Shown here: positions 7,140 through 48,067 of the stretch, piece after piece
Layout of the letters: each line of letters starts with the position of its first letter
Numbering within the stretch: position 1 is the stretch's first letter
Origin: Thermanaerothrix daxensis
GTDB lineage: Bacteria; Chloroflexota; Anaerolineae; Anaerolineales; Anaerolineaceae
Assembly (NCBI RefSeq): GCF_001306145.1
Contig: NZ_LGKO01000002.1
Span: 310,001 to 374,000, forward strand
Direction of reading: 5' to 3'
DNA: 64,000 nucleotides
Position numbers and translations under genes: made by a program
Notes under the pieces: model-generated
Database searches by the model: none
What the model saw: the letters and a program-made list of their open reading frames with translations, nothing else
Told to the model about the DNA's origin: nothing

Positions 7140-7174
7140 CGTTTGTCGGAGAAGCGGATAAGGAAGATCAGGCG

Positions 7175-7570: not shown

Positions 7571-7582
7571 ACAAATCTGCTC

Positions 7583-7984: not shown

Positions 7985-8050
7985 AATGCGCTCCTGCGGA
8001 CGCACATCCGAGCCATGGTGGCCAGGATGATCAGTCTATCTTGTAACTAT

Positions 8051-8078
8051 ATTGTAATAAAACTTTTAATTTTGTCAA
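8051..8078 (-). promoter_or_regulatory. Promoter of the DUF2089/SHOCT operon with direct repeats
   Basis: On the minus strand TTGACA (8078-8073) and TACAAT (8056-8051) are 16 bases apart, near consensus. The -10 lies in TTACAA-TATAG-TTACAA, two direct 6-mers one helical turn apart (about 8041-8057), a plausible operator. Confidence 0.65.
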
Positions 8079-8216
8079 GTGGTTGTTTAATAAATCAAAA
8101 GTACAATTAAGAAATATTGAAATGTCTGGCGTTGTAGAGTCGTGTAGGGCAGGTATGACAAAAAGTGCTTTGCCTCTGACTTGTGGAGTATAATGCGCAA
8201 GGTTGAGGTATTGGCG

Positions 8217-9275
8217 ATGAAGTGGATATTGCACACACAATTTCCCGAATATCTTAAAGATGCCTGGAACACGCTTCTGGAAGAAGCGATCACCAATGTG
8301 CCGTTTCTGCGCTATGAATATCTGGCTGCCTGGTGGGAGACGCGGGGAGGGGGCGAATGGCCACGGGCGCAACTGGCGTTGGTAACCGCCCACGAGCAGG
8401 AGCGTTTGATTGGGGTGGCCCCTCTGTTTTTTGTCCCCGAGCCTCAGGGACGCCCGACTTTGCTATTTTTAGGCAGTGTCGAGATCTCAGATTATCTGGA
8501 TTTCATTGTGCGGCCAGCCGATTTAGAGCGCTTTGTGGATGGACTCTGGGTTTTCTTGACGCAGGAATTGCCCTTTGAGTGGCAAGCCCTGGATCTTTAC
8601 AACCTCATTGAAACTTCGCCCACCCTTTCGGTTTTGAATACGTGGAGCCCACAACATCATTTGACCCTGCAAGTCGAGCGCCTGCAGCCTTCGCCTTATA
8701 TTCCCTTGCCAGGAGACTGGGAGGCTTACCTGGCCAGCCTGGATAAAAAGCAGCGTCACGAGATTCGTCGGAAGCTGCGCCGTGCCGAAGGACATACTTC
8801 GATGGTGTGCTGGTACTGTGCCGGGGAGAACGTGGAAGCGGAAGTAGAGGCTTTCCTGGACCTGATGGCACAGGATGAGGACAAGGCGGCTTTTCTAACT
8901 CCTGTGATGCGCCAGACGCTGCGCCGAATTGCGCTGGCCGCGGCGGCTCATGGCTACTTGCAACTGGCTTTCTTGGAGATTGGAAAAGAGAAGGCTGCCG
9001 CCTATTTCAATTTTGATTACCACGGTCGCGTTTACGTCTATAATACCGGTTTTAATCGTCGCTTCAACGATCTTTCTCCCGGTTGGGTGCTCCTCTCCTA
9101 CCTCTTGCAATGGGCAAATCAGAACGGACGGAAAGAATTTGATTTTATGCGCGGGGACGAGGCGTACAAATATCGCTTTGGGGCCATTAATCGGTATGTG
9201 GTGCGGGTAACTTTGTTGCGCCAGCCCGCTTCTGCCAGCGCCCTTGGTGCGGCTTCTACCTCTGTCCAGGAGTGA
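8217..9275 (+). CDS. FemAB/BioF2-like GNAT acyltransferase (Acetyltransf_6)
   Basis: This 352-residue protein fits the double-GNAT FemAB-like family. Marker segments are LIGVAPLFFV (about residue 65), YLASLDKKQRHEIRRKLRRAE (about 170-190), and the C-terminal run YFNFDYHGRVYVYNTGFNRRFNDLSPGWVLL with FDFMRGDEAYKYRFGA. Related proteins act in polysaccharide, cell-wall or lipid modification with acyl-CoA or aminoacyl donors. The ATG at 8217 has GAGG eight bases upstream and is preferred to 8181. TATAAT at 8189-8194 could be the -10. The Mrp gene follows after 7 bases and is probably cotranscribed. Confidence 0.82.
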   Translation: MKWILHTQFPEYLKDAWNTLLEEAITNVPFLRYEYLAAWWETRGGGEWPRAQLALVTAHEQERLIGVAPLFFVPEPQGRPTLLFLGSVEISDYLDFIVRPADLERFVDGLWVFLTQELPFEWQALDLYNLIETSPTLSVLNTWSPQHHLTLQVERLQPSPYIPLPGDWEAYLASLDKKQRHEIRRKLRRAEGHTSMVCWYCAGENVEAEVEAFLDLMAQDEDKAAFLTPVMRQTLRRIALAAAAHGYLQLAFLEIGKEKAAAYFNFDYHGRVYVYNTGFNRRFNDLSPGWVLLSYLLQWANQNGRKEFDFMRGDEAYKYRFGAINRYVVRVTLLRQPASASALGAASTSVQE

Positions 9276-9282
9276 TACCGGA

Positions 9283-10350
9283 ATGCTGAATGAAACCATT
9301 TTGCGCGAGGTTCTACGCCAGGTTATTGACCCTGAACTGGATCGCAATATTGTGGATTTGGGTATGGTGCGTGATTTAACCTGGGAGGCAGCCAGTGGGC
9401 GGGTGCGCTTTACCCTGGCCTTAACTACGGCAGCATGCCCACTGCGTCACCGCCTGGCCGATGAAGCACGCACAGCCCTTCTGCGCCTGCCGGGGGTTAG
9501 CGAGGTGGAGGTGGTGCTGGGGGTAATGAGTGACGAAGAGCGGCAGGCGATGTTGGGAGGATCTCATGCCCAGGCACCGAAACTGGCCGGATTCAACCGC
9601 ATCGGTCAGGTGATTGCAGTGGTGAGTGGTAAAGGGGGCGTGGGCAAGTCGTCGCTGACAGCCCTGTTGGCCGTTGCTCTCGGCCGCCAGGGGCAGAAAG
9701 TGGGTGTGTTGGATGCCGATATTACCGGTCCAAGCATTCCTAAGTTATTCGGACTGCCTGCGGGTGGGCTGCGCGGCAATGAGGCGGGGATTCTGCCTGC
9801 CATCACCCGCACCGGGATTCGCGTGGTCTCTGCCAACCTGATGCTTCCCGAGGAGGATGCAGCCGTTGCCTGGCGAGGGCCGCTCATCACCGGTTTGATT
9901 CAGCAATTCTGGGGGCAGGTCCTGTGGGGTAAACTGGATACCCTGTTGGTGGACCTTCCCCCCGGGACTTCTGACCCGTTATTAACGGTAGTGCGTCAAA
10001 TGCCGCTAAGAGGGGCCGTGCTGGTCACTTCTCCTCAGCAATTGGCGGCACTGGTGGTGCGTAAGGCGGTCAATTTACTGAAGACCCTGAACGTCCCCGT
10101 ATTGGGTGTGGTTGAGAATCTGGCGTATTATCCCTGTCCCCAGAGCGGAGAACACCATGAGGTGTTCGGGCCCAGCCATGCCTACGAGGTAGCAGTGGCG
10201 GCGGGGTGTGACCTGCTGGTACGTCTGCCAATTGATCCTTCCCTGACCCAATTGGGAGATGCAGGGCGGATCGAAGAGGCCGAATTGCCCGAACTGGCGC
10301 CTCTGGTCGCGCGATTATTGGGAGTTGTCACCCAGCGCGCACAGGCGTGA
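9283..10350 (+). CDS. mrp: Mrp/ApbC-type P-loop ATPase, iron-sulfur carrier family
   Basis: This 355-residue protein has an N-terminal MIP18/DUF59 domain (residues 1-90) and a Mrp/NBP35 ATPase with the deviant Walker A GKGGVGKSS near residue 118 and switch motif DLPPGTSD. Family members carry and transfer Fe-S clusters as dimers, the bridging cluster held by a C-terminal CPxC motif. Here that motif reads CPQS: Cys285 is kept and the second cysteine is Ser288, so classical cluster binding may be weakened or lost. The ATG at 9283 follows AGGAG and lies 7 bases after the preceding gene. Confidence 0.92.
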   Translation: MLNETILREVLRQVIDPELDRNIVDLGMVRDLTWEAASGRVRFTLALTTAACPLRHRLADEARTALLRLPGVSEVEVVLGVMSDEERQAMLGGSHAQAPKLAGFNRIGQVIAVVSGKGGVGKSSLTALLAVALGRQGQKVGVLDADITGPSIPKLFGLPAGGLRGNEAGILPAITRTGIRVVSANLMLPEEDAAVAWRGPLITGLIQQFWGQVLWGKLDTLLVDLPPGTSDPLLTVVRQMPLRGAVLVTSPQQLAALVVRKAVNLLKTLNVPVLGVVENLAYYPCPQSGEHHEVFGPSHAYEVAVAAGCDLLVRLPIDPSLTQLGDAGRIEEAELPELAPLVARLLGVVTQRAQA

Positions 10351-10373
10351 GATTTAGGGAAGTGTCATCATAT

Positions 10374-10712
10374 TCAACCGATTGGCCAGCCGAGGGGGAC
10401 GGGTTGGTCGGGTTGTAGCAAGACCACATCGTTGTCGGGGCCCATGGCACCCAGGACGAGCACCTCGGAGACGAAATCAGCAATTTGGCGTGGGGGGAAG
10501 TTGACCACGGCAACCACGAGGCGCCCCTCCAGGTCTTCTTTGCGGTAGCGCCGGGTCAGTTGGGCGCTGGAGGTCTTGATCCCCAGCGGTCCAAAGTCTA
10601 TCCACAACTTATAAGCGGGTTTACGGGCTTTGGGGTGGTCCTCTACGCGGATAACTTTCCCGATACGCATGTCCACTTTGGCGAAATCATCGTAGGTGAT
10701 TGAGGGGCTCAT
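10374..10712 (-). CDS. csaA: CsaA-like tRNA-binding (EMAP-II/OB fold) protein
   Basis: This 112-residue protein is a single tRNA-binding OB-fold domain. It shows KVDMRIGKVIRVEDHPKARKPAYKL, GIKTSSAQLT, VAVVNFPPRQIADFVSEVLVLG and the C-terminal VVLLQPDQPVPLG, all typical of CsaA. CsaA has been described as a chaperone-like protein linked to secretion. GGAG precedes the ATG at 10712. It begins 24 bases after the NrtR-like gene on the same strand, so the two are probably one transcript. The functional link is not obvious. Confidence 0.87.
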   Translation of the reverse strand: MSPSITYDDFAKVDMRIGKVIRVEDHPKARKPAYKLWIDFGPLGIKTSSAQLTRRYRKEDLEGRLVVAVVNFPPRQIADFVSEVLVLGAMGPDNDVVLLQPDQPVPLGWPIG

Positions 10713-10736
10713 TGCATATCTCCGTAGGGGTGGCAT

Positions 10737-11399
10737 TTAGGGAAATAAGCGGCGTGCTTTGATCTCGGCGATTGCATCCGGGCGGTAGCGGTAGAGGCGT
10801 GCAGGGCGCCCTTCGCCACTGCGCACATGTGGTGTGGGTTCAATCACGCCCGCCTGGAGCAGTCGGCGACGGAAGTTCCGTTTATCCAGGCGCTCCCCCA
10901 GGATGAGTTCGTAGGTGTGCTGTATCTCGCTGAGAGTGAATAATTCGGGCAGTAATTCGAATCCCACGGCGGTATATTCCAGTTTGTAGCGCAAGCGGCG
11001 CAGGGCATAGGCCAGGATGCTGGCATGATCCAGGATGAGCGGGGGCAAGCGGGTGAGGGGGAACCAGGCGCCAGTTGGGGTGGTGGGAGCAAGGCGGGCA
11101 ATTGCGTCCATGGCAATCAGAGCAAAGTAGGCTACCGAAATCAGACAATCATGAGGATGTCGGTCGGGCTCACCGTAGGTGTATAGTTGCTCTAAATAGG
11201 CTTCGCGCAGTCCCAAGCAGGTTTCCAGGCATTGGTAAGCGGTTTGCTCCAGCGAGCACCCGCCCTCGAACGGTTTTGCGGGTAGCGCCCACTGGCCCTC
11301 TGCATGCGCTTCATGACAGGGTTGCAGCCAGACTTGTAGAGCCTCATCTTTGAGGGTGAAGATGACCAGCAGGACTTCTAGATTGATGGTATGGCTCAT
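10737..11399 (-). CDS. NrtR-like regulator: degenerate Nudix domain plus winged helix
   Basis: This 220-residue protein has an N-terminal Nudix-fold domain (residues 5-140) and a C-terminal winged helix (LFTLSEIQHTYELILGERLDKRNFRRRLLQAGVIEPT). This is the architecture of NrtR, which senses ADP-ribose or related nucleotides and usually represses NAD metabolism. The Nudix box is not catalytic: the REUxEE core reads QCLETC, so binding without hydrolysis is expected. No NAD gene is adjacent, so its targets lie elsewhere or differ. Specific regulon unknown. Confidence 0.85.
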   Translation of the reverse strand: MSHTINLEVLLVIFTLKDEALQVWLQPCHEAHAEGQWALPAKPFEGGCSLEQTAYQCLETCLGLREAYLEQLYTYGEPDRHPHDCLISVAYFALIAMDAIARLAPTTPTGAWFPLTRLPPLILDHASILAYALRRLRYKLEYTAVGFELLPELFTLSEIQHTYELILGERLDKRNFRRRLLQAGVIEPTPHVRSGEGRPARLYRYRPDAIAEIKARRLFP

Positions 11400-30236: not shown

Positions 30237-33200
30237 ATGTCGCTTGTGCCTTTCGTGTGGGGTTTGCTCTTTATCCTCCTGGGTGGTGTCGCCTGGATAG
30301 CGGCGCGCTGGTTGTTACGAGCCTTTCCGCGCACCCGCGTGGCGGAAGTTTCGATGTGGGCGCCGGAAAACGGCCCCATGCACTCTGAGGCTGTTCTCGT
30401 CATCCACCCGGGCGGACGTGTAGTCTGGTTGAATGAGCGCGCGCGGGCGCTTTTTGAACTCCCACGCGAGGCTACCGCGAATCTTGAGGCTTTGGCGCGC
30501 AAAGTGCGTCCTTCCGAGCTCTTCCTGGGGCTGTGTGCCAGCGGTGGGCAGGATTTGCTGACCCTGGGGGGGCGTACAGTGGAGGTACGCGTATTTCCGA
30601 CGCCTTTGGATGGCCAGGTGTACCGTTTGCTCTGGCTGCGCGAAGCCAACCTGGCTGGGGAACTGACCCATGAGGCGGCCATGCCAGCCCAAACCCTGCA
30701 GACATTCTTGCAACTTACCCAGGCAATAGCCGCCAGCCTGGACCTCAATGAGACGCTCCAGGCTGTGCTGGATAGCCTGGAGCGTTTATTGCCTGCGGAT
30801 ATCTGGGAAGTGACGATTTGGGATGCCGAAGCCGGGGTGCTGTGGCCTTATCGGCGATTGGCGGGGCACCGCCTAGAACGGGTCCCGCGGGGGTATGCGC
30901 TGGATGAAGGTTATTCGGGCTATCTGGCACGCACGCGGCGGCCTCTCCTGCTCGCGCGTGTGGAAGAGCGCTCGGATCTCCATCAGGCTATTGACCGCCA
31001 GACGTATCCCCTGCGCTCATACATGGGGGTGCCGTTAATGGTTGGGAAGGAATTGATTGGAACGCTGGAAGTGGGTTCGCTGACGGCGGATCATTTCCAG
31101 GCTTCTGATTTGGAACTCTTGCGCCTGATTTCGGGGCAGGCGGCCATTGCCATTCATCATGCCCTGCTTTATCGCCAGGAACAGCGACGAGCCATGGAAC
31201 TGGCCGGCCTGGCGCAACTGGCGCAGGCGTTCAGTTCGGTGCGTGATTCGCGGGAGCTTTATGATCGTCTGGTCAACAGCATTTTGCCCTTGGTCCAGGT
31301 CAATGTGCTGGGGTTCCTGATTTTCAACGAGAACACGCGCCGACTGGAGGCTCAGGCTCCATTTATCGGATTGCCTCCTGAATTTTTGGAGATGTATCGC
31401 GTGCCAGTGGGAGCGAATTCCCCTCTGGAACGCGCACTGCTGGAACAGGATGTGTTAATCACCGAAAACGCTGCCGAGGATGTCCGTTGGCGTGAATTGG
31501 GCTTGCATAATCTGGCTGTTGCAGCCGGCCTTCGCGAGACCGTACTGGTGCCACTGGCTTCGGTCGGGCGGGTGCTGGGTTACATGCAGGTTTCCAATCG
31601 GATTAACGGGGGGACGTTCACCCAGGACGAAATTCGCCTGCTAATGATCATTGCTAATCAGGCAGCGCCGATCATTGAGAATGCAACCCTGGTGCAGCAA
31701 ACCCGACAGCGTGCTCAACGAGCCGAGGCCTTGCGCCGCATTGCCAGCCTGGCCGGTTCGGCGGCCACACTGGATGAGATCCTGAAGTATTCATTGCAGG
31801 AATTGGTACGGCTTCTACATGCCGATTGTGCGGCCGTTTTTCTGCTGAATTCCAGCCGTACCGCTCTGGAGCTTCATCCCCCCTCTTATTTTGGCGAGAA
31901 AATCCAGGAAACCGGCTTTACCCCACGTTTGCTGGTGGATGATCCCCAATTTCCTTTTACCGTAACGGGCGGCCAGGATGCTTTATACAGTGGTCAGTTA
32001 TCGCTTGAAACTGCACTGATTCCCTTTTACCAGCAATTACGGCAAGCCTGGGGGGTGGAGTCGGCCATTGCAGTGCCTCTGGTGGTGCGCAATGAGGGAA
32101 TTGGCGAGATTTGGGTGGGAAGCCGGCGCAGCGATCAGTTTGATCATGCCGACTTACAACTGATGTTCACGGCTGCCGGACAGCTGGCCGGAGTCGTTGA
32201 GCAGGCCTCTCTGGCTGCTCAAACCGATGAAACGTTGCGCCAGAGGCTGGAACAATTGACGGCGCTCAACCGAATCACGCGTGAACTGAGCGCCTCTCTT
32301 GATCTTGAACATTTGATGGAAATTGTGTATGAGGAGGCGTTGCGCATTACACGCGCGGAGTGTGGCAGCCTGTTGCTCTTTGATTTGCAGCACATGTCCC
32401 GTCCTGGCACGGCGCCGGTGCGACTGATTTTGGGCGAGCCGATGCCCACCGAATTGAATGCGCTTGAGCAACGGGTGCTGCAGAGCGGTGTGCCTGCAAA
32501 TATTGCCGAAGTACCTCCAGATCTTGCGACTACGCTTCACGAAGGGGTGGGCTCGCTCCTGATCGTGCCAATATTCTATCGCCAGTATCCGGCGGGACTG
32601 ATCCACCTACATGCACGTCACCCCAATCACTTTGGGCCAACGGTTGTTGAAATCGTGCAGTCCCTGGCGGCGCAGGCCAGTGTGGTGCTGGGCAATGCAT
32701 TACAGTACGAGGAACAGGTCCAGCGCAGTGAATTGGTGCGGCGGCAACTGGAAACTTTTGCCGAGCTTTATCGGGTTTCGTCCTTCCTGTGGCCCGATCA
32801 GTCCCTCGAAGAGGCGCTGGCAGCCATTGCCCGTGCAATTACTCAGGCGACCCCGTTCCGGGCTGTGTTGATCAGCGTGTATGATCCCCAAACGGAGTGT
32901 CTGATTCGCACTGTGAGCCGTGGCTTGACGCCGGAGCAATGGGAAGAGTTGCGTCAGCGCTCACTCCCCTGGTCAGCGCTGGAGACCTTGCTGCGGCCCG
33001 AGTTTCGTCTGGATTCTCTTTATTACATTCCGGCAGATCGCACACCGGTGTTGCCTGAGTCCCTGCACTCGGTCAACGTATTGCATTCTGAGGATGAATT
33101 ACCCGCCGAAGGAGACCTCTGGCACCCTGATGATTTGCTGCTGGCGCCCCTTTATGATGCTTCGGGGCGTCCGTTGGGGCTGATTAGTGTGGATGATCCG

Positions 33201-36200
33201 AGCGATGGTCGGCGCCCGGATCGGGCTACCCTGGATTCCTTGGGACTTTTTGCATCTCAGGCTGCGCTGGCGATAGCCCGTCATCGCTACCTGCAATCTC
33301 TGCAACAGCGTTTGGCTCACTTTGAATCTTTGCAGAGTGAAGCGAATCGTCAGCGCGAGGCCTTGCGGTGGCAACGTGTGCGCGAGGGTTTTGCTATTGT
33401 GGAGCAGGCTTCGCAACAGCAGGATGTCATGGGGGTATTGCGAAGTGTAGCCACGCAATGGTTGGAGCGGTTAGGTGGACGGGCGGCGCTAATTGCAGAG
33501 CAGAGTCCGCAGGGGCCTCGCCTGTTGGAGATTGTTGGTGTGCTCCCTTCGGATCTCAACCCACAAGCGTTGCTGGGACAACGGAATCCCCTGCTGCAGG
33601 CTCTTAATGAAGGTGCGCCCCTCGCGGTTGCGGATCTTCGAGAGACACCTGTTTGGCAGAATAATCCGCTTTTGCAGGGCTGGGAGGCGCAAGCATTCAT
33701 GGCTCTGGTGTTTGAGCGCGCCGCCGGGCAGCGGGTTGGAGTATTGGTCCTGGTGGATCATCCTCTACCACCTTTTGATGCTGAAGATCTGGTTTTCTAC
33801 GCTCAGCTCTCGCGGCAGATCAGTATTAGCCTGCAAAACCTCGATCTGTTGGAGACAACGCGTCGCCGCTTGCGAGAGGTCAACCTGCTCCTGGAGTACA
33901 GCCGCAAGTTGGGCAGCCTGAGTGAAGTGGATTTGTTGCGTGCCTTATGTGAGACCGTCCTTGAGGTCATTCCAGAAGCAGAAGCCGCCTGGGTCGCACT
34001 TTTGGATCCGCGCGAAGGAAAGTTGGTACCCCGTGCTGCGCGGGGATACTCCGATTGGGCGTCTCTGGTTGCGGTGCGCTTTGCCGTTGACCCGGAGGTT
34101 CAGTCCATTCCAGCGCGGGTTTTCCACCAGGGGCAGGTGGTGAATATAGCCGAGGTCAACTTCGTGCGGGATTATGCCCTGATGGGTGAGGATTTGCTTC
34201 ACTATCGCCGCGCGCAGCAAGGGCGACTGCCATTAGCGGCACTGGCTGTGCCGCTGGGAGGCGGCGAGCGAATCTCGGGAGTCTTGGTGGTTGAAAATTT
34301 CAGCCAGAGCGGTGTCTTCGGTCCTGAGCATCAGCGTCTGGCTCATTCGCTGGCTCAGCAGACGGTACTGGCTCTGGAGAATGCGCGCTTGTTCCATGCT
34401 GCTGGTCAACGGTTGGCGCAACTGCAGGCACTCACGCAAGCATCCGCACGTTTGGCGGCAGGTCTAACACGTGAGGACGTTCTCTCAACGCTGATGCATG
34501 CATTAGGCGAGGTCATTTCATTTGATACTGCCGTGCTTTGGTTGCGTGACGGCGAAACGTTGCGCCTGACAGCCGCCCAGGGGTTTGCGGATAGCGATCA
34601 GCGGGTGGGCCTGGAGGTTCACCTGGAGGATAGTCGCCTCTTCCAGGCCATGCGTGAGCATGGGCAGCCCATTCTGGTTGCGGATGTGCGCCAGGATGAG
34701 CGCTTCCCTACCTTCATAGAACCGGAACGCTTGTGCTGGTTAGGCTTACCGCTGATGGTGCAGGCGGACTTAATCGGCGTGCTGGCGCTGGAGAAAACCG
34801 AAGCAGGCTATTACACCTCAGAGGATGTACAGGTGGCGGCAACATTTGCCAGCCAGGCAGCCCTGGCGCTGGAGAAGGCTCGCCTCCTGGAAGATAGTCA
34901 ACAACGCGCGGTTGAACTTGACCAGCGCTCGGAGCGCCTGGCTTTGCTCTATAACCTCTCCAATGAGTTAGGAGCCTCGTTAGATACCCAATATATTCTG
35001 GATCTTACCTTGCGGCGTTTACAAGAAGCGCTGAAGGGCAATGCAGTTGCCCTGCTGATGTGGGAGGAGGGCCAAGCAAGATTGGCACGGGTTTCACCAG
35101 AAGGGGAGGCGACCTTACCTCAGGCGTTGCCGGACTTCCCCCTTTTGGATCGCTTGCAGGAAACGCAGGGCGTCTATATTGCCGGGGATCTCCGGGGCGA
35201 TGCAGAGATGGCCCCACTGGTTCAGGTCTGGCCGTTTTTGATAACGATGCGCTCGCTCTTGTTGGTTCCGCTGGCCAGCGCACAGACACTGCATGGATGG
35301 ATAGCCCTGGCATACGCCGATGAGCGCCGCCTGGCATCTGCCGAGATTGAACTGGCCCGGACGATCTGTAACCAGGCTGCTACGGCGCTTCAGAATGCGC
35401 GCTTGTATGCCGAAACACATGCGCTAAAGGAAGACCTCGAGCAACGTGTGGCCTTGCGCACGGCTGAATTGCGTCAGGCCAACCTGGAGACGCAAACGCT
35501 TTTGCGGGTGATCACGGAACTCTCGGCTAGCCTGGATCTCCATCAGGTGTTAACCCGGGCACTTGAGGTGCTCAACCAAGCGCTTGATGTGGAAGCCAGT
35601 CTGGTGCTTTTGACCCAGGGAGAGAGTTACCTGCGCACGGTTTCCGGTTTTGAGGTGGACGCGAAAGCATTAATCGAAGCGGCTGTACCGCTTCACCGTC
35701 AGGTCATGGCGCAACGTGCTCCGGTCGTGGTCGGGATGAATGCACAGGATGCGGGTAAAGAGACAGAGGCCTTGCTTGCCCATGGGGTCAGAACAATTCT
35801 GGCGGTGCCGCTTATCCTTGGGGAGGAAGTCCTGGGCTCGCTCGTATTGCTGCATCGTCAACCCGGGCATTTCCAATCCACCCATGTCAACCTGGCCCAG
35901 GCCGTTGCCCGTCAAATGAGCATAACCCTGAGCAATGCCGAGTTCTTTGGATTGATTCGCGATCAGGCTGAGAGCCTGGGGCAGATGGTGCGTGAACAGC
36001 AGATCGAAGCCAGTCGCTCGCGGGCCATCCTCGAGGCAGTTGCCGAAGGGGTTATGGTAACGGATGCGGATCTCCGCATCACCCTGTTCAATGCCTCAGC
36101 AGAGCGAATTTTGGGTCTGCGGGCTGATTTGGTGCTTAATCAATCCCTGGAGCGTTTCAGCGGCCTCTTCGGTGAGGCTGGCCATGCCTGGGTGCAAACC

Positions 36201-37082
36201 ATCCAACGCTGGTCGGAGCAGGCTGAGGCGGCGGATGCCAGTGAGACCTTTGCGGGTCAGATGGTCTTAGAGGATCAGCGGGTTGTGGCCATCCATGTGG
36301 CACCTGTATTCTGGCGCGATCACTTCCTGGGCACGGTCTCGATCTTCCGAGATGTGACCTATCAGGTGCAGGTGGATCGTTTAAAATCGGAATTCCTGGC
36401 GAACGTCAGTCATGAACTGCGAACCCCTCTCACGGCGATCAAAGGTTATGTAGACGTGATACTGATGGGCGCCGCCGGCACGATCACCGAATCTCAGCAG
36501 CGCTTCTTGCGCATCGTTAAGGAAAATGCCGAACGTCTGATTCGCCTGGTGAATGACTTACTGGATGTCTCGCGCATTGAGGCCGGACGAGTGGAACTCA
36601 ATCGTGTAGCGTTCGATCTCGCCGAGGTGGCACGCGAAGGCATGAAGGACCTGCAGACGCGCGCACGCGAGGAGGCTCGTAGTTTGGAGTTTCGGCTTGA
36701 TCTTGTGCCGGATCTACCCTTGGTTTACGGGGATCGTGAACGTGTACGGCAAATTGTGGATAGTCTGCTCTCGAACAGTTATCATTACACACCCGATCAA
36801 GGGTGCATCACTCTGAGCGTGCATCCCTCAGGCGAAGGTGAGGTGCAGGTGGATGTTCGGGACACAGGGATTGGTATTCCCCTGGAAGATCAGCCACGCA
36901 TTTTTGAGCGTTTTTATCGCGGGAACAATCCCCTGGTCATGGCAAAGGCTGGCACGGGGTTGGGGCTGGCGCTGGCCAAGATTTTGGTGGAGATGCAGGG
37001 CGGTCGCATCTGGTTCCAGAGCAGTGGCATCCCTGGGGAAGGAAGCGTTTTCTCGTTCACATTACCTATTGCGGAGCGTTGA
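30237..37082 (+). CDS. Giant sensor histidine kinase with ten GAF domains
   Basis: This 2281-residue protein has one N-terminal membrane helix (residues 4-28) and a PAS-like segment (about 50-135). Ten consecutive GAF domains end near residues 310, 475, 655, 820, 1012, 1200, 1380, 1545, 1720 and 1900, each closing with a helix of the form QAALALENARL. A PAS domain (about 1925-2040), HisKA with phosphoacceptor His2059 (VSHELRTPL) and HATPase_c (DTGIGIP, GTGLGLALAKILVEMQGG) follow. Several GAFs open with 'ELSASLDL', so they look like tandem duplications. The array could integrate many ligands or form a long signalling rod. Cotranscribed with a receiver-GGDEF protein, a lone receiver and a hydrolase-like protein. 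Confidence 0.93.
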   Translation: MSLVPFVWGLLFILLGGVAWIAARWLLRAFPRTRVAEVSMWAPENGPMHSEAVLVIHPGGRVVWLNERARALFELPREATANLEALARKVRPSELFLGLCASGGQDLLTLGGRTVEVRVFPTPLDGQVYRLLWLREANLAGELTHEAAMPAQTLQTFLQLTQAIAASLDLNETLQAVLDSLERLLPADIWEVTIWDAEAGVLWPYRRLAGHRLERVPRGYALDEGYSGYLARTRRPLLLARVEERSDLHQAIDRQTYPLRSYMGVPLMVGKELIGTLEVGSLTADHFQASDLELLRLISGQAAIAIHHALLYRQEQRRAMELAGLAQLAQAFSSVRDSRELYDRLVNSILPLVQVNVLGFLIFNENTRRLEAQAPFIGLPPEFLEMYRVPVGANSPLERALLEQDVLITENAAEDVRWRELGLHNLAVAAGLRETVLVPLASVGRVLGYMQVSNRINGGTFTQDEIRLLMIIANQAAPIIENATLVQQTRQRAQRAEALRRIASLAGSAATLDEILKYSLQELVRLLHADCAAVFLLNSSRTALELHPPSYFGEKIQETGFTPRLLVDDPQFPFTVTGGQDALYSGQLSLETALIPFYQQLRQAWGVESAIAVPLVVRNEGIGEIWVGSRRSDQFDHADLQLMFTAAGQLAGVVEQASLAAQTDETLRQRLEQLTALNRITRELSASLDLEHLMEIVYEEALRITRAECGSLLLFDLQHMSRPGTAPVRLILGEPMPTELNALEQRVLQSGVPANIAEVPPDLATTLHEGVGSLLIVPIFYRQYPAGLIHLHARHPNHFGPTVVEIVQSLAAQASVVLGNALQYEEQVQRSELVRRQLETFAELYRVSSFLWPDQSLEEALAAIARAITQATPFRAVLISVYDPQTECLIRTVSRGLTPEQWEELRQRSLPWSALETLLRPEFRLDSLYYIPADRTPVLPESLHSVNVLHSEDELPAEGDLWHPDDLLLAPLYDASGRPLGLISVDDPSDGRRPDRATLDSLGLFASQAALAIARHRYLQSLQQRLAHFESLQSEANRQREALRWQRVREGFAIVEQASQQQDVMGVLRSVATQWLERLGGRAALIAEQSPQGPRLLEIVGVLPSDLNPQALLGQRNPLLQALNEGAPLAVADLRETPVWQNNPLLQGWEAQAFMALVFERAAGQRVGVLVLVDHPLPPFDAEDLVFYAQLSRQISISLQNLDLLETTRRRLREVNLLLEYSRKLGSLSEVDLLRALCETVLEVIPEAEAAWVALLDPREGKLVPRAARGYSDWASLVAVRFAVDPEVQSIPARVFHQGQVVNIAEVNFVRDYALMGEDLLHYRRAQQGRLPLAALAVPLGGGERISGVLVVENFSQSGVFGPEHQRLAHSLAQQTVLALENARLFHAAGQRLAQLQALTQASARLAAGLTREDVLSTLMHALGEVISFDTAVLWLRDGETLRLTAAQGFADSDQRVGLEVHLEDSRLFQAMREHGQPILVADVRQDERFPTFIEPERLCWLGLPLMVQADLIGVLALEKTEAGYYTSEDVQVAATFASQAALALEKARLLEDSQQRAVELDQRSERLALLYNLSNELGASLDTQYILDLTLRRLQEALKGNAVALLMWEEGQARLARVSPEGEATLPQALPDFPLLDRLQETQGVYIAGDLRGDAEMAPLVQVWPFLITMRSLLLVPLASAQTLHGWIALAYADERRLASAEIELARTICNQAATALQNARLYAETHALKEDLEQRVALRTAELRQANLETQTLLRVITELSASLDLHQVLTRALEVLNQALDVEASLVLLTQGESYLRTVSGFEVDAKALIEAAVPLHRQVMAQRAPVVVGMNAQDAGKETEALLAHGVRTILAVPLILGEEVLGSLVLLHRQPGHFQSTHVNLAQAVARQMSITLSNAEFFGLIRDQAESLGQMVREQQIEASRSRAILEAVAEGVMVTDADLRITLFNASAERILGLRADLVLNQSLERFSGLFGEAGHAWVQTIQRWSEQAEAADASETFAGQMVLEDQRVVAIHVAPVFWRDHFLGTVSIFRDVTYQVQVDRLKSEFLANVSHELRTPLTAIKGYVDVILMGAAGTITESQQRFLRIVKENAERLIRLVNDLLDVSRIEAGRVELNRVAFDLAEVAREGMKDLQTRAREEARSLEFRLDLVPDLPLVYGDRERVRQIVDSLLSNSYHYTPDQGCITLSVHPSGEGEVQVDVRDTGIGIPLEDQPRIFERFYRGNNPLVMAKAGTGLGLALAKILVEMQGGRIWFQSSGIPGEGSVFSFTLPIAER

Positions 37083-41495: not shown

Positions 41496-42974
41496 TCATT
41501 CGTCGCTCAACCACCAGGCAGCGCCCAAAACACCCGGCCCGGCATGGGCACCGATGACGGGGGTCAGTTCGGTTAAGTAGTGTTCACGGGGTTGAAGCAA
41601 CTCCACCAGGCGCTGATAAAGGGCTTGACCTTCTTCAGGGGCGTCGGCGTGGAAGCAAATCAGAGCGGTGATCTTCCCGCCCAGGTGTTTTTGCAGCCAC
41701 TCAACCATACGCTCAACGGCTTTCCTGCGTGTCCGTTCGACGCCTTCCAGGCGGATATGGCCCTGGTGGAGCGAGAGAACAGGGTGCAGACGTAGCGCAG
41801 ACCCCAGGAGTGAATTGATGGCATTGACGCGTCCGCTATGAGCAATGAAACTTAGGGTGTCCAACACCCCCACAATTCCAATACGAGGAATCAGTGCCGG
41901 AAGTGCCTCAATGATTTGCTCAGCACTGGCACCGCCTGCCGCCAGACGAGCCACCGCCAATGCCAGCAATCCCTGGGCTGGTCCGGCCAGACGCGTATCT
42001 ACTACGCGGGCCTGGAGACCCTCTTCGGCTGCCATTTGAGCGGCCAGGTTGGCGCTGAAGAAGCACTGGGTCAGTTCCGCCGGGGGGGTTAGAATAAGTG
42101 CTACCTGGTCGGGTGCCACCAATCGGCGAATGGCTTGCAGGTATTCGCCTGGTGCGGGAGCGGAGGTTTTGGGCAATAATCCATCGCTGCGCAAGCGTTG
42201 ATAGTACTCGCGGGTGTCAATGCCCATCCCATCCTGCACCACGCCTTGGGGCAGAATCAGGGCCATGGGGAGCAAGTGAATACCTTCGCGCTGGCACAGT
42301 TCTGGGGGCAAGGAGGCAACGCTGTCGGTTATGACCACGGTGGTCACCTTGGGTACGGCGGTCACCCGGGGGTGAAGCAGATCAAAGAGCAAGCGCCGGG
42401 CATCGCGCGTTTTCTGCCAGCGCGCCAAAACTTCGGGTAGGGAGCATACAGCGGTGGTGAACGCCAGAATGAGCGGTGCGGCGACAATCCAGGCATCGTA
42501 GCCATCCCAGTAGATGAGTAGCATCAACACCGGAAAGGCGAGCAGAGTGGCCAGGATGCCACTTCCCCCGCTCCCCAGGTAGATCATTCCGTACAAGGGT
42601 AAGGCCATGAGCATCTGCCGTGGGACCAGGGCCAGCAGAGCCCCCAAGGTTGTGGCCAGCCCCCGTCCTCCGCGGAAGCGGAAGTAAAGGGGGAAGCGGT
42701 GTCCCAGCATCGCCGCCATGCCGGCCAGCACCATGCAGGCTTCGGGGGCTGAGAGTGCGCGGGCAACCAGAATGGCGATCCCGCCTTTGGCGATATCTAC
42801 AATGGCTACCAGAGCCGCTGGTTTGATGCCCAGGTGGCGGGCCACATTTGCAGTGCCGGCGTTCGCGTCTCCCAACGTGCGGATATCGCGTCCGCTCCAC
42901 CAACGGCTGATCGGGATAGCAGCAGAAAGCGAGCCGATCAGATAACCAGCAAGGATTACCCACACGCAGGTCAT
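41496..42974 (-). CDS. PlsY-like acyltransferase fused to a DegV/FakB fatty-acid-binding domain
   Basis: This 492-residue fusion has an N-terminal PlsY membrane domain (residues 1-200, about seven helices). It shows a diverged motif 1 (GDANAGTANV, residues 36-45) and motif 2 (GHRFPLYFRFRGGRGLAT, 91-108). The PlsY motif 3 (HRxNI) is not evident. From residue 211 a complete DegV domain follows: TDSVASLPPEL, KTSAPAPGEY (Thr270), DTLSFIAHSGRVNAINSLLG (Arg382) and VIGAHAGPGVLG (His477). The Ser-containing SGT loop reads ELTQCF. FakB proteins present fatty acids for phosphorylation and PlsY uses acyl-phosphate, so the fusion joins two ends of one route. It overlaps the VOC gene by 4 bases. Confidence 0.9.
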   Translation of the reverse strand: MTCVWVILAGYLIGSLSAAIPISRWWSGRDIRTLGDANAGTANVARHLGIKPAALVAIVDIAKGGIAILVARALSAPEACMVLAGMAAMLGHRFPLYFRFRGGRGLATTLGALLALVPRQMLMALPLYGMIYLGSGGSGILATLLAFPVLMLLIYWDGYDAWIVAAPLILAFTTAVCSLPEVLARWQKTRDARRLLFDLLHPRVTAVPKVTTVVITDSVASLPPELCQREGIHLLPMALILPQGVVQDGMGIDTREYYQRLRSDGLLPKTSAPAPGEYLQAIRRLVAPDQVALILTPPAELTQCFFSANLAAQMAAEEGLQARVVDTRLAGPAQGLLALAVARLAAGGASAEQIIEALPALIPRIGIVGVLDTLSFIAHSGRVNAINSLLGSALRLHPVLSLHQGHIRLEGVERTRRKAVERMVEWLQKHLGGKITALICFHADAPEEGQALYQRLVELLQPREHYLTELTPVIGAHAGPGVLGAAWWLSDE

Positions 42975-43405
42975 GGCCCCTCTCCTTCTGATGCAGGTGG
43001 GATGGAACCAGGCTTTAGCCGCACTCCAATTCTACTGCGGGGGTGATACCACAGATCGCCTCCCGCATCCCTTTCTAAATTATAGCCGTTGAGGCGCAAG
43101 TGCGATTGAACCCGTGCCAGGTCAGTCACCTCAAAGGTTAATTCTATTTCTGGGAATGATGGATTAGGCTCAGAAAGACTGGCTTCTTGTAAGGTAAGGT
43201 ACAGATTATCACCAAGACAAAAGGTGACTTGCTTCTCCTTAAGTGGGGGTAGCAAGGGTAGTCCCAGGGCTTCGTGAAAGAGGGCGCGTTGCAACGGCAG
43301 GTTTTCCACCCGCAGGCAGATTTGGCGCAACTGCCCACGGGTGGGGTTTGCCGAATTTCCGAGTAAGCGACGCAACCAACGGTAGCCCAGAAAACCGGGT
43401 GTCAT
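42971..43405 (-). CDS. VOC (glyoxalase/dioxygenase-like) domain protein
   Basis: This 144-residue protein has one VOC fold: QICLRVENLPLQRALFHEALGLPLLP in the first beta-alpha unit, FCLGDNLYLTLQEAS, and IELTFEVTDLARVQSHLRLNGYNL with IGVRLKPG at the end. The usual metal-binding His/Glu positions are not clear, so it may only bind a ligand. Both ends overlap neighbours by 4 bases (radical SAM upstream, PlsY-DegV downstream), so the three proteins are made together. Function unknown. Confidence 0.75.
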   Translation of the reverse strand: MTPGFLGYRWLRRLLGNSANPTRGQLRQICLRVENLPLQRALFHEALGLPLLPPLKEKQVTFCLGDNLYLTLQEASLSEPNPSFPEIELTFEVTDLARVQSHLRLNGYNLERDAGGDLWYHPRSRIGVRLKPGSIPPASEGEGP

Positions 43406-44931
43406 GGGGCCGATTTCACCTCCGATGAGGCGAATTCAGGGGTCAGGTTGTCTGAAACCTCGGCAGGACCCCCTTCCACGTAGGTGCGCTGCCAGACGAC
43501 ATCTGCCAGGCGTTGGAAGGACTGGGCGTAGTTTATCAATCCCTCGGCGTAGGAAGGGTCCAGCAACGCAGCGCGGGCGTTTTCGTCACTGGGTTCGGGC
43601 TCGTGCTCCTTGATGAGTGTGCGTAGCACATCGTGGTGGTCACGGATCAGACACGGGGCGAGCAGGTTCTGATGCTGATAACTCGTTTGCCAGCGCCGGA
43701 TTCCCGCGAAGAAAGGCTCGCGATAGACATCGTTGAGATTGCCCCCGCGGGCATAGACCTCTTTGATGTTGATGGCGGTGTAGGGCACAAACACACAAGG
43801 ACTGACGTTTCCATTCCAGTCAATGTAGAAATAACCTCCCTTGCCATAACCGCCCGCCGAGATACATCCGCCTACCAGCGTTCCGTGGTTCCAGAAGTCG
43901 GCCAGAATGATCCGCTTCTGGCGAATGAGGTACCATGACTGTCGCCACATCCACAGGCGCTGTTGAGGCGTGGGCATCAGATCCAGGGTGAAGGCACGCC
44001 CGATGGGCATGTACTGGAAAATCCAACCATACAGGGCATGTCGTTCAAAGAACAGAAAGTCAATGAATTCCTCTGAGAGAATGGTCTGGACGTTATGACG
44101 CGTGGCGGTGAGGGAAACGCCAAAAGGTACACCTGCCTGATAAAGGCGATCCATGGCCGCCATCACCTTGTCAAAGACTCCAGGGCCGCGGCGCTGATCG
44201 GTCTGCTCGCGCCATCCTTCCAGGGAGATGGCTGGCGTGAGGTTGCCCAATTCGCTTAAGCGTTGGGCCACAGCCTCTGTGATCAGGGTGCCGTTGGTGT
44301 ACATCAGGAAGAATGTATTGGGATGATTGGCCGCCAGATCCAGGATGGTCTTGCCCTGGGAACGATAGGCCAGGGGTTCACCACCGCTGATCACCATGAA
44401 CTGAGCGCCCCATAAAGTTTCTGCCTCAGTGACCAGGCGATCTACAATGTCCCAATCCAGTTTCTGGGTATTGGCTCCGGAGTCGGCGTAGCACCCAATG
44501 CAGCGCAGGTTGCACCCTTTGAAGGGACTGATGGTGAGAAAAGAGGGTTGATCGTATCCGTATTGGGCGCGAAAGGTTTCGGCGGCTTCGCGACGACGTT
44601 TCTTTTCGATAAACAGGTCGCGCATTAGAATGGAAAACAACCCGCGCAGCCAGGGTTTGGACAGATGATATTCGGTTAGGGCGCGTTCACCCACGCGGAG
44701 CAGGGCCAGGGCAAAAGCCTCTTGATCGGCGATTAGACCGGGGAGTTCCTGGCCTGCTTTACGCTGTAATTCAGCCTGCTCGTGGATGCGATGTTCCAGA
44801 GTATGCACAATCCAGCGGCGCGTGTTCTGGCTGCGGGCCAGGAGCGGGGCCAGTTCGACCATGCGTTCCACCAACAGTGTCAAATAGCGTGGGGAATTTG
44901 CTGGCAAAGCCGGTTGGGCGTTGGTTATCAT
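43402..44931 (-). CDS. Radical SAM protein with C-terminal extra-cluster region
   Basis: This 509-residue radical SAM enzyme has the cluster motif CNLRCIGC (Cys140, Cys144, Cys147) and the SAM-binding GGEPLA. The C-terminal half holds further cysteines (GGCISAGGYG, SPCVFVPY, APCLIRDHH) resembling a SPASM-like auxiliary cluster site. The N-terminal 130 residues are helical. GGAGGTG precedes the ATG at 44931. It leads a coupled operon with a VOC protein and the PlsY-DegV fusion, which hints at lipid chemistry, but the substrate is unknown. Confidence 0.88.
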   Translation of the reverse strand: MITNAQPALPANSPRYLTLLVERMVELAPLLARSQNTRRWIVHTLEHRIHEQAELQRKAGQELPGLIADQEAFALALLRVGERALTEYHLSKPWLRGLFSILMRDLFIEKKRRREAAETFRAQYGYDQPSFLTISPFKGCNLRCIGCYADSGANTQKLDWDIVDRLVTEAETLWGAQFMVISGGEPLAYRSQGKTILDLAANHPNTFFLMYTNGTLITEAVAQRLSELGNLTPAISLEGWREQTDQRRGPGVFDKVMAAMDRLYQAGVPFGVSLTATRHNVQTILSEEFIDFLFFERHALYGWIFQYMPIGRAFTLDLMPTPQQRLWMWRQSWYLIRQKRIILADFWNHGTLVGGCISAGGYGKGGYFYIDWNGNVSPCVFVPYTAINIKEVYARGGNLNDVYREPFFAGIRRWQTSYQHQNLLAPCLIRDHHDVLRTLIKEHEPEPSDENARAALLDPSYAEGLINYAQSFQRLADVVWQRTYVEGGPAEVSDNLTPEFASSEVKSAP

Positions 44932-45181: not shown

Positions 45182-45213
45182 GATATAAAATTAGAATGAT
45201 TACAGGGAAGAAG

Positions 45214-45690
45214 ATGACCGAGAAAGCAATTTTGTTAGATTCGTTACGCAAGGCAGGCCTGCGACTCACACCACAGCGACAGGCCATTTGTGAATTGTTG
45301 GCAGAGAGTCGTGAGCATCCCACCGCAGCGATGATTTATGAAACTCTAAAGCCGCGCTTCCCATCATTGAGCCTGGCTACGGTGTATAACACACTCGAAG
45401 TGCTGGTGCGCTTAGGAGCGGTTAACGTTTTGGGTAATGCCGGGGATGGGATGGCCCATTATGACGCCGATACCGATCCTCACATTAACCTGGCCTGCGT
45501 TTCGTGTCATAAAATTGTAGATTTTCCCAGCCAGTACGTGCAGTTCCTGGATGAGGAAATCAGCGCTACCTCAGGGTACCGCGTCTTGGGAGCGCGGGTG
45601 TTGTATTACGGGTTATGCCCCGAATGTCAGCAGAAGACATCCATTGCACGGAAGGAGCCTGATTATGACCACCGCGGAAACAACGCCTGA
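45214..45690 (+). CDS. Fur family regulator, PerR-like
   Basis: This 158-residue Fur-fold repressor has an N-terminal winged helix (LRLTPQRQAICELL; LSLATVYNTLEVLVRLGAV) and two structural-zinc CxxC motifs (CVSCHK and CPECQQ). The KIVDF motif and the residues matching PerR His37, Asp85, His91 and Asp104 are present; the PerR His93 position is Asn (DPHINL). GGGAAG precedes the ATG at 45214. The gene overlaps the P-type ATPase gene by 26 bases and has a palindromic box in its promoter, so it probably represses both until metal or peroxide signals relieve it. Confidence 0.88.
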   Translation: MTEKAILLDSLRKAGLRLTPQRQAICELLAESREHPTAAMIYETLKPRFPSLSLATVYNTLEVLVRLGAVNVLGNAGDGMAHYDADTDPHINLACVSCHKIVDFPSQYVQFLDEEISATSGYRVLGARVLYYGLCPECQQKTSIARKEPDYDHRGNNA

Positions 45691-48067
45691 ACGATCCTTT
45701 CCCAATCTGCCTGTTTCGGGCTTACGATGCACCGATGTCTTTGCCGATACCCTGCAAGGGTATGCCGGAATTAAAGCCGTTCACTACGATTATCATGCAG
45801 AACGCCTGCGCCTGGTGTACGATCCTGAGATCATTTCCCCCGAACGGGCTCTTCTGCTTGTGAACGAAGCGGGCAAAGTGGCGGCTGGACGAAGCGCACA
45901 ATGTGCAGCCCGCCGTGAAATGGGAGGCGCTGCCTGTGCAATTTGCGCGCTGCAATTGGGCCAGGCTTTGGGGCTGGATCCCTCACGGGTGACCTTTCAG
46001 GGAGACGCTCTTGAAATAGGATGGGGTGAGGTTACGCGGCCCGCTGCTGATGTCGAGGAAGTTTCGGCACCTCCTGCCGGTCTTGAATCTCCAACTTCTC
46101 CTCGATACGATGAGCAAAAGGTTCAAATTCTCTTTACCATTCTCACGGCTTTCTTCACACTGGCAGCGTTGTTGCTCGAACGCTTAGGGGCTGCACCGAT
46201 GGTGAGCGCGGGGTTGTTTGCTCTGGCGTATGTTACCGGTGGATGGTTTGGGGTGCAAGCCAGTCTGGAAGCATTACGCGAGAAAACCCTCAATGTGGAT
46301 TTGTTGATGATCCTGGCGGCGCTGGGAGCGGCCGTCATTGGTTCGCCCGCAGAAGGGGCGGCCTTGCTTTTCCTGTTTTCTCTTTCGAACACGCTCCAAG
46401 CCTACGCCATGGATCGTAGCCGTAAAGCCATTGAAAAATTGCTAGACCTGCGCCCCAAGGTGGCCACAGTGCGACGGGGATCGCGTCTGGTGACCGTGCC
46501 GGTGGAAAAGTTGATCCCGGGGGATATCATCGTGGTGCGTCCGGGGGAGCGTTTCCCCATTGATGGGGAGGTGATCAGCGGAACCTCGGAGGTCAATCAG
46601 GCCACAATCACTGGGGAGTCCATGCCGGTAAGCAAACAAGTGGGTGATGCGGTTTTTGCGGGCACCGTCAACGGCAATGGCAGTTTGGAAGTACGGGTGA
46701 CGCGCCTGGCAAAGGACACTACCCTGGCACGCATTGTTCAAATGGTGGAGGAAGCCCAGGCCAGTAAAGCGAAAACCCAGCGTATGCTGGATACATTTGA
46801 GCAGTATTATGCCTTTTTTGTCCTGGGGATGGCGGTTTTGCTCATCCTTATCCCCTATTTTGTCTTGGGTCAGCCTTTCTATCCCACCTTTTATCGTGCG
46901 ATGACGTGGCTGGTGGTGGCTTCTCCATGTGCTCTGGTCATTTCAACCCCTGCCAGCATTCTCTCGGCGATCGCAAATGGAGCGCGTAATGGCGTGCTTT
47001 TTAAGGGTGGGGTGCACCTTGAGAAAGCCGCTGCGCTCAAGGTGGTGGCTTTTGATAAGACCGGTACTTTAACCCATGGCGTGCCTCAATTAACTGGCAT
47101 TTACCCCCTGGCCGATCTGGATGAGACCACCCTCCTGCAACAAGTGGCGGCTGTGGAAGCGCGTTCTGAGCATCCGATTGGGGCGGCCATTGTGCGCGCG
47201 GCTCAGGAACGTGGCCTGGTTCTGCCAAGTGCGCGGGAATTCCGGGCCTACCCGGGGCATGGGATTGAGGCGCAAGTAGATGGATACCGTTGGCTGGTTG
47301 GGAATGTGCGCCTGTTCGCCGAGCGAAATATGGCTCTCCCCGAGTCGCTCCAGGTGCGGATTCGGCAATTGGAAGATGAGGGCCAGACTGTGATGCTGGC
47401 CTACGCTGAGCCACTGGATGGTCATGAGGCGGGGCAGGGGCATTTTGTGGGCTTGCTGGCGGTGGCGGATGCTCTGCGGCCTGAAGCCGCTCTTGTAGTT
47501 AAGGCGCTCAAGCGAGTTGGGGTTGAGCGTGTGGTCATGCTAACCGGCGATAACGAGCGTGTAGCAGCGCGCATTGCTGCCCACACGGGTGTGGACGCGT
47601 ACTATGCCAATCTGCTGCCCCAGGACAAGGTTCGTGTTTTGCGTGAGTTGCGTGAAACTTACGGGGCGGTTGCTATGGTAGGCGATGGAGTTAACGATGC
47701 GCCCTCTCTGGCCGCGGCCGACCTGGGGATTGCGATGGGAGGCGCCGGTACCGATGTGGCCATTGAAACAGCGGACGTAATTTTGATGTCGGATGATTTG
47801 CAAAAAATTCCTTTTGCGTTGGGTTTGGCGCGACAAGCGCGTCGGGTCGTATGGCAGAATCTAACCTTTGCCCTGGCGATGATTGTTGTGCTGGTTGTTA
47901 CAACCTTTGGGGCAACTCTCCCCCTGCCATTGGGAGTATTGGGACATGAGGGGAGCACCGTCATTGTTGTGCTGAATGGACTGCGCTTGTTGGGATATCG
48001 TGGGTTTTCCGGGGTGGCGCTTCACCCCAAGGTTCCTTCGCGGTTACTTCGTCAATTTTCTTCCTGA
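45665..48067 (+). CDS. P1B-4 type metal-exporting ATPase (PfeT/CtpD-like)
   Basis: This 800-residue P-type ATPase has the phosphorylation motif DKTGTLTHG (Asp464), TGES, and GDGVNDAPSLAAADLGIAMG. The membrane metal site is SPC (Ser420-Cys422) with HEGS at 761-764 in the penultimate helix, the diagnostic pair for subgroup P1B-4, which exports Fe2+ or Co2+. The N-terminal 150 residues lack a standard metal-binding ferredoxin fold but hold a Cys-rich stretch (CAARREMGGAACAIC). GGAAGGAG precedes the ATG at 45665, inside the regulator gene. With a PerR-like partner, iron efflux as in Bacillus PfeT is the best inference. Confidence 0.92.
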   Translation: MTTAETTPERSFPNLPVSGLRCTDVFADTLQGYAGIKAVHYDYHAERLRLVYDPEIISPERALLLVNEAGKVAAGRSAQCAARREMGGAACAICALQLGQALGLDPSRVTFQGDALEIGWGEVTRPAADVEEVSAPPAGLESPTSPRYDEQKVQILFTILTAFFTLAALLLERLGAAPMVSAGLFALAYVTGGWFGVQASLEALREKTLNVDLLMILAALGAAVIGSPAEGAALLFLFSLSNTLQAYAMDRSRKAIEKLLDLRPKVATVRRGSRLVTVPVEKLIPGDIIVVRPGERFPIDGEVISGTSEVNQATITGESMPVSKQVGDAVFAGTVNGNGSLEVRVTRLAKDTTLARIVQMVEEAQASKAKTQRMLDTFEQYYAFFVLGMAVLLILIPYFVLGQPFYPTFYRAMTWLVVASPCALVISTPASILSAIANGARNGVLFKGGVHLEKAAALKVVAFDKTGTLTHGVPQLTGIYPLADLDETTLLQQVAAVEARSEHPIGAAIVRAAQERGLVLPSAREFRAYPGHGIEAQVDGYRWLVGNVRLFAERNMALPESLQVRIRQLEDEGQTVMLAYAEPLDGHEAGQGHFVGLLAVADALRPEAALVVKALKRVGVERVVMLTGDNERVAARIAAHTGVDAYYANLLPQDKVRVLRELRETYGAVAMVGDGVNDAPSLAAADLGIAMGGAGTDVAIETADVILMSDDLQKIPFALGLARQARRVVWQNLTFALAMIVVLVVTTFGATLPLPLGVLGHEGSTVIVVLNGLRLLGYRGFSGVALHPKVPSRLLRQFSS

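Follow-up and report, generated by a model that had tools for sequence, protein, structure and literature searches.

Thermanaerothrix daxensis, a heat-loving bacterium of the Chloroflexota, encodes in a single polypeptide a PlsY-fold membrane domain followed by a DegV/FakB domain, and the PlsY half carries replacements at its acceptor site that recur throughout a small family of homologous fusions. PlsY is the enzyme that starts phospholipid synthesis, an acyl-phosphate:glycerol-3-phosphate (G3P) acyltransferase. We read the fusion as a membrane-tethered FakB that would pass acyl-phosphate on to a PlsY-like domain whose acceptor site is altered, and we put the probability of this reading at roughly one half. 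Every biochemical step in it we infer from the fusion itself, its conservation, its predicted fold and residue pattern, the selection acting on both halves, and the pairing of degV with plsY in relatives. The gene lies in a stretch of 64,000 nucleotides, the whole of which is referred to here as the window. Its parts are as follows.

41496..42974, minus strand: PlsY-like/DegV fusion gene of 492 codons plus stop, recognised from its open reading frame, its Pfam and NCBIfam matches and 11 further fusion homologues
42375..42974, minus strand: PlsY-fold membrane half, residues 1-200 (PF02660, Aquifex PlsY match, predicted fold)
41499..42344, minus strand: DegV/FakB half, residues 211-492 (PF02645, TIGR00762, predicted fold)

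The 492-codon frame described in the earlier note is real and sits on the minus strand, running from 42974 down to 41496; the plus-strand frame beginning at 41496 contains many stops. The joint between a PlsY-like domain and a full DegV domain, also proposed there, is borne out by Pfam matches and by predicted folds resembling 5xj7 and 5uto_A. PF02660 (G3P_acyltransf) matches residues 10-169 (E 1.4e-36, 126.5 bits against a cut-off of 24.1), PF02645 (DegV) matches residues 213-487 (E 4.4e-56, 190.7 bits, above cut-off), and the NCBIfam family TIGR00762 is found in the DegV half, also above cut-off, with 208.7 bits. Two equivalog families are missed: the fusion scores 117.8 bits against the 137.2 required for TIGR00023 (PlsY) and 113.3 against the 350 required for NF038249 (FakB1). 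Sequence comparison pairs the first half with Aquifex PlsY 5xj5 (E 9.7e-20) and the second with Bacillus subtilis DegV and staphylococcal FakB1. An AlphaFold2 model built with 38 sequences from the window and the loci has a mean pLDDT of 93.1 and a pTM of only 0.67, so that the model does not fix how the two halves sit relative to each other. Residues 1-204 are predicted to form the seven-helix PlsY fold (against 5xj7, Z 21.4, rmsd 3.3, 191 residues aligned), and residues 210-491 resemble FakB1 5uto_A (Z 34.0, rmsd 2.2, 280 aligned); the predicted DegV half also matches 3nyi_A with Z 35.8.

The architecture itself is not new and has been in print since 2017. Li et al. (PMC5700162) report the PlsY-DegV fusions A0A0P6X7I7 and A0A0P6XUK7 from Bellilinea caldifistulae and Thermanaerothrix daxensis, with the same domain order as the window protein and, for the second, from the same genus. 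The window protein is probably one of these two entries. Their paper poses as an open question how the unstable acyl-phosphate travels from the enzyme that produces it to PlsY, and proposes for such fusions a channelling from FakB to PlsY, the idea being that passage in cis protects acyl-phosphate from heat. They also raise the idea that such fusions are confined to thermophiles. The suggestion of an uncharacterised architecture in the earlier note does not stand, since PMC5700162 already describes it together with the same idea of an acyl-phosphate handover. In its account of the fusions, that paper gives the identities of the DegV part to FakB1 and FakB2, without an active-site comparison, further members or gene pairs. 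Among the matches listed in our literature search by titles and abstracts, PMC5700162 is the only paper to describe the fusion, and none deals with its biochemistry. What is added here is a wider family, fixed acceptor-site replacements with FakB residues retained, and a repeated pairing of degV with divergent plsY.

Homologous fusions, on whose presence in related genomes the earlier proposal depended, occur in 12 of the 400 genomes of our order draw, in 5 of the 147 genomes of the family and, among the matches listed, in at least 4 of the 61 genomes of the relatives draw, the own genome being included each time. The carriers are G000 (own), G001, G452, G004, G461, G737, G728, G600, G056, G597, G671 and G626, the last with a fusion that ends at a contig end and covers query residues 3-377. 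The ten other full-length fusions are 44-90% identical to the window protein in the search alignments, and all eleven others are 43-90% identical in the MAFFT alignment; the closest named relative, at 90%, comes from an uncultured Thermanaerothrix. The class draw (396 genomes) and the phylum draw (400 genomes) return the fusion only in G000 and G004, which both belong to the own family, at thresholds of E 1e-45 and 1e-60 and with three candidates scored per genome, settings that make misses possible. The fusion occurs patchily in four families of the order, which may reflect loss, transfer or incomplete genomes. With only 12 carriers among 400 genomes, the order evidently does not depend on it.

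We constructed trees from 86 DegV rows, leaving out the truncated G626, and from 55 PlsY rows, dropping near-copies and frames shorter than 150 amino acids. Each half of the fusion forms one clade among the rows sampled (support 100/100 and 100/99), which fits a single fusion event. The dN/dS ratios of five fusion pairs are 0.044, 0.043, 0.071, 0.070 and 0.080 for the PlsY half and 0.036, 0.109, 0.137, 0.087 and 0.203 for the DegV half; the PlsY half has the lower value in four of the five pairs, and all ratios are rough because every pair has a dS of at least 0.61. These low values indicate that the altered PlsY half is being maintained and is not decaying. The chance that a frameshift or misassembly merged two adjacent genes is negligible: relatives do have plsY and degV as separate adjoining genes, but an identical in-frame joint across 12 genomes, a single clade and low dN/dS rule such an artefact out.

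The PlsY half combines retained and replaced pocket residues, the principal ones being these.

42867..42869, minus strand: Asp36, in place of Aquifex PlsY Ser35 (G3P phosphate clamp); Asp in 4 and Asn in 8 of the 12 fusions
42849..42851, minus strand: Ala42, in place of Aquifex PlsY Thr41 (acyl-phosphate carbonyl); Ala in 12 of 12
42837..42839, minus strand: Arg46, equivalent to Aquifex PlsY Arg45; kept in 12 of 12
42699..42701, minus strand: His92, equivalent to Aquifex PlsY His92 (phosphate hole); kept in 12 of 12
42660..42671, minus strand: G102-G103-R104-G105 loop (phosphate hole); G102, G103 and G105 kept in 12 of 12

In Aquifex numbering, the fusion shares with Aquifex aeolicus PlsY (5xj5-5xj9) a common fold over residues 1-204, N37 (kept in all 12 fusions), R45, H92 and the GGxG loop, and differs from it in the changes of S35 to D, T41 to A and K104 to R, in having no His177, and in its C-terminal DegV domain. 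At the position of K104 the family has R in five members (the own protein included), K in five and Q in two. The H-x-x-N motif is absent from residues 151-215 of all 12 fusions. Two alignments place motif 3 differently, neither setting a His at 177, and Asn stands at 180 in 3 of 11 fusions by one alignment and in 0 of 12 by the other, the own protein having D by the first. The diverged motif 1 seen by the earlier reader thus corresponds to the replacements of S35 and T41, its lack of a clear motif 3 to the missing H-x-x-N, and its altered PlsY half to a pattern (S35 and T41 replaced, no H177) that all 12 fusions share. From the G3P clamp (Ser35, Arg45, Lys104 and Asn180) together with His177, the own protein keeps only Arg45. 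The acyl-phosphate pocket retains His92 and the GGxG glycines in every fusion; of the two Aquifex PlsY side chains that bind acyl-phosphate, one, Thr41, is replaced by Ala in every fusion, which weakens any claim of an intact pocket.

Changes at these positions are costly in Aquifex PlsY. According to Table 2 of PMC5700162, the activity left is 4.8% for S35A, 4.4% for S35C and 17% for S35T; 4.75% for T41A and 45% for T41S; 25% for K104R; 3.7% for H177K and 1.0% for H177Q; and 3.3% for N180D. S35A, T41A and every H177 mutant remain below 7%. S35D and S35N are not among the Aquifex mutants that the paper presents, and Asp occurs naturally at S35 in 2.7% of 7,288 homologues. If the Aquifex rules apply, the PlsY half should be a poor G3P acyltransferase, and its residues make it look less like a working one than would be expected from the published proposal.

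In these genomes, however, the Aquifex mutants may be a poor guide to activity, because many of their PlsYs depart from the Aquifex pattern. We found 46 PlsY places in 14 genomes, comprising the 12 fusions and 34 non-fused homologues. None of the 21 non-fused PlsYs that were aligned (out of the 34 places, with one a fragment and one aligning poorly) keeps all of S35, N37, T41, R45, K104, H177 and N180. The own genome has three stand-alone PlsY homologues, at L085:2466-3086, L085:10720-11430 and L086:2207-2815, with TIGR00023 scores of 119.9, 105.4 and 115.0, all below 137.2. All four PlsY homologues of the own genome deviate from the Aquifex pattern, and none has the full Aquifex active site. 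Either these bacteria may use other contacts to G3P, or a true G3P acyltransferase may sit among the divergent forms.

In FakB1, Thr62, Ser95, Ser171 and His270 surround the carboxylate of the fatty acid, Arg173 serves in catalysis and as a latch, and Arg205 serves in docking to FakA (PMC8892158). The equivalent positions of the DegV half are listed below, one of the fusions being truncated before the last three.

42165..42167, minus strand: Thr270, equivalent to FakB1 Thr62 (fatty-acid carboxylate network); kept in 12 of 12
42069..42071, minus strand: Thr302, equivalent to FakB1 Ser95 (carboxylate network), Ser to Thr; Thr in 12 of 12
41829..41831, minus strand: Arg382, equivalent to FakB1 Arg173; kept in the 11 of 11 rows that reach the position
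41733..41735, minus strand: Arg414, equivalent to FakB1 Arg205 (FakA docking); kept in 11 of 11
41544..41546, minus strand: His477, equivalent to FakB1 His270; kept in 11 of 11

The fusion and Staphylococcus aureus FakB1 (5uto) therefore have in common their fold, the equivalents of T62, R173, R205 and H270, and S95 in the form of Thr; unlike FakB1, the DegV half is tethered to a membrane domain. Thr270, Arg382 and His477 had been picked out correctly from the letters alone, as they match T62, R173 and H270. The loss of the SGT loop, claimed at the same time, holds literally, as the SGT/SGS position reads T-Q/R/H-x in the fusions and TQC in the own sequence, but not functionally in its hydroxyl, which the change of Ser95 to Thr retains in 12 of 12 fusions. 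At the position of FakB1 Ser171 the own protein has Ser (S380), and 7 of 11 fusion rows have Gly. Judged by these residues, the DegV half looks like a working one, more intact than the earlier note assumed.

A homologue of the partner kinase is also encoded elsewhere in the own genome, where that note had proposed to look for fakA. The genome has two Dak2 places, one of them within a FakA homologue (YloV/FakA) at L088:3402-5075 that scores 546.1 bits with TIGR03599, above the cut-off of 396.1, and 436.2 of the 975 required by the FakA equivalog NF038248, below cut-off. A DegV gene directly follows this homologue, six further DegV genes lie elsewhere, and PlsX is encoded as well. FakA is present in 13 of the 14 genomes searched, the one in which it was not found being G597, a genome that is 83% complete.

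Coupling of the two families extends beyond the fusion. A PlsY frame is also present at 26 of 63 loci with a stand-alone DegV (L010-L084), loci that were chosen as the best matches to the fusion, of which eight come from one genus and three from another, and in four of which (L014, L015, L080 and L081) the match spans both genes. Of the 68 DegV frames, 24 lie no more than 300 bases from a PlsY and 28 no more than 1,500 bases, against a chance expectation of about 0.25 PlsY genes in 241,884 bases, a figure based on how densely PlsY genes occur in the 14 genomes. The 28 tabulated pairs, made up of the 26 loci plus L125 and L126, which were fetched by a PlsY search, come from 13 families and always lie on the same strand, with plsY first in 15 and degV first in 13. 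The genes of the L028 pair are separated by 1,151 bases, and some of the overlaps within pairs arise from start codons set too far upstream.

The DegV tree provides an internal control. In one clade of 23 stand-alone DegVs, none has a PlsY neighbour; in the clade that holds the fusions, 22 of 37 non-fused members do (20 of 35 without L125 and L126). Paired PlsYs fall into at least three lineages in the tree: a large one with 22 of 25, that of L014 and L015, which keeps S35, T41 and R45, and L041. Of the 28 paired PlsY rows, 22 have another residue in place of R45, 5 keep it and 1 is masked there. This repeated linkage of degV with PlsYs of several lineages argues for a functional link. Like the fusion, the Anaerolineae pairs couple the same two families, and the fusion DegV half lies within the clade holding 22 of the 25 paired DegVs (100/99). 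Unlike the fusion, the pairs are separate genes in both orders, and 22 of the 25 paired PlsYs belong to another lineage: the fusion PlsY half lies outside the main paired clade, and its weakly supported neighbours (97/70) are two stand-alone PlsYs and the paired L041. An origin of the fusion by simple joining of the common degV-plsY pairs is thus unsupported for the PlsY half. Both trees have long branches, about whose meeting the tree tool warned, and their deep placings are unsure.

Some of these loci are more elaborate. At L091 (G014:C11), positions 5930-10845 form one cluster in which a 4HBT thioesterase separates two degV-plsY pairs and which HlyD/ABC exporter genes flank; G047 (L090) holds a comparable cluster that includes a thioesterase and a PlsC-like acyltransferase. 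HlyD and ABC exporter genes are found close to the fusion in G600 and G597, and in G014 and G047 they occur close to the split degV/plsY genes; one HlyD gene (G014) and one ABC gene (G597) were tested and the rest were called by eye, too few for an argument.

Two genes lie directly upstream of the fusion in the window.

42971..43405, minus strand: open reading frame of 144 amino acids, with no Pfam or NCBIfam match, overlapping the start of the fusion by 4 bases
43402..44931, minus strand: radical SAM protein of 509 amino acids (Pfam radical SAM; SPASM match below cut-off)

These two genes overlap each other head to tail by 4 bases. In the sister genome G001, which is of the same genus, neither of them precedes the fusion, and we rejected a conserved operon on that ground. 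A lipid role for the radical SAM protein was likewise set aside, as it matches Pfam radical SAM and, among the 25 matches listed, no specific family above cut-off; its PDB matches are weak. Elsewhere in the window, on the plus strand, a 2281-amino-acid frame at 30237-37082 appears by eye to carry repeated GAF-like sensor segments and a terminal histidine kinase, followed by a response regulator. Also on the plus strand, 45551-48067 looks by eye like a heavy-metal P-type ATPase; if the frame is taken to begin at its first start codon, it shares bases with the end of a Fur-family regulator at 45196-45690.

In the mechanism that we favour, the C-terminal DegV half would bind a fatty acid, and a separately encoded FakA would dock on it and phosphorylate the fatty acid in place. 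With the DegV half attached to the last helix of the PlsY-fold domain, the labile acyl-phosphate, short-lived in heat, could pass in cis into the acyl-phosphate pocket of that domain. The phosphate-holding parts (His92 and the GGxG loop) are kept there, and together with the fold they suggest that the pocket is used. In PlsY the clamp opens to the cytoplasm, and motif 3, near the C terminus, belongs to the clamp (PMC5700162); a C-terminal DegV domain would accordingly be expected at the cytoplasmic mouth of the pocket. Since the acceptor side is fixedly changed (S35 to D or N, T41 to A, no H177), the PlsY half may acylate something other than G3P, or may acylate G3P in an altered, slower or regulated way.

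The same replacements could instead mean that the PlsY half is a non-catalytic anchor, which only holds FakB at the membrane or docks to a true PlsY or PlsX, with fatty acids loaded and acyl-phosphate released at the bilayer. S35, T41 and H177 are replaced in all 12 fusions, the own protein has also lost K104 (to R) and, in one alignment, N180 (to D), and T41A, K104R, H177K and N180D singly leave little of the Aquifex activity in the table of PMC5700162 (4.75, 25, 3.7 and 3.3%). Three other PlsY homologues in the own genome and the loss of R45 from 22 of 28 paired PlsY rows point the same way. Yet the PlsY half is under strong purifying selection (dN/dS 0.04-0.08), and its N37, R45, H92 and GGxG loop, retained in 12 of 12, are more than an anchor needs; we regard an anchor as possible but doubtful. 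Retention of R45, N37 and H92 in a matching fold would suit the proposal of Li et al. (2017) that an ordinary PlsY with full G3P acyltransferase activity is fused to FakB and channels acyl-phosphate in cis against heat. The architecture and genus are those of the fusions in PMC5700162, and, as all four PlsYs of the own genome deviate from the Aquifex pattern and miss TIGR00023, the lineage may simply use different contacts to G3P. This proposal has to accommodate, however, the replaced S35 and T41 and the missing His177 of all 12 fusions, positions at which, with N180, the Aquifex mutants S35A, T41A, H177K and N180D leave 4.8, 4.75, 3.7 and 3.3% of activity in that study, and we hold it to be improbable. 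A regulatory sensor, in which the DegV half would read free fatty acid and gate the PlsY half without FakA-dependent phosphorylation, would account for the changed SGT loop and for Gly at the FakB1 Ser171 position in 7 of 11 rows, but it is very improbable given that R173 and R205, used in catalysis and FakA docking, are kept in 11 of 11 rows and that FakA was found in 13 of the 14 genomes searched.

More broadly, and only tentatively, the Anaerolineae may possess a membrane-bound branch of the Fak system, with DegVs coupled repeatedly and independently, by fusion and in gene pairs of two or more kinds, to PlsY homologues with a re-tooled acceptor site, so that scavenged or recycled fatty acids would be activated and placed on an acceptor other than G3P. 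A natural fusion of carrier and PlsY fold allows acyl-phosphate channelling to be tested directly within a single polypeptide, and the residue pattern reported here makes that test sharper. Should the fusion prove not to be a G3P acyltransferase, then PlsY-fold proteins use acyl-phosphate in other ways as well, and the annotation of the divergent PlsY paralogues of these Chloroflexota would change.
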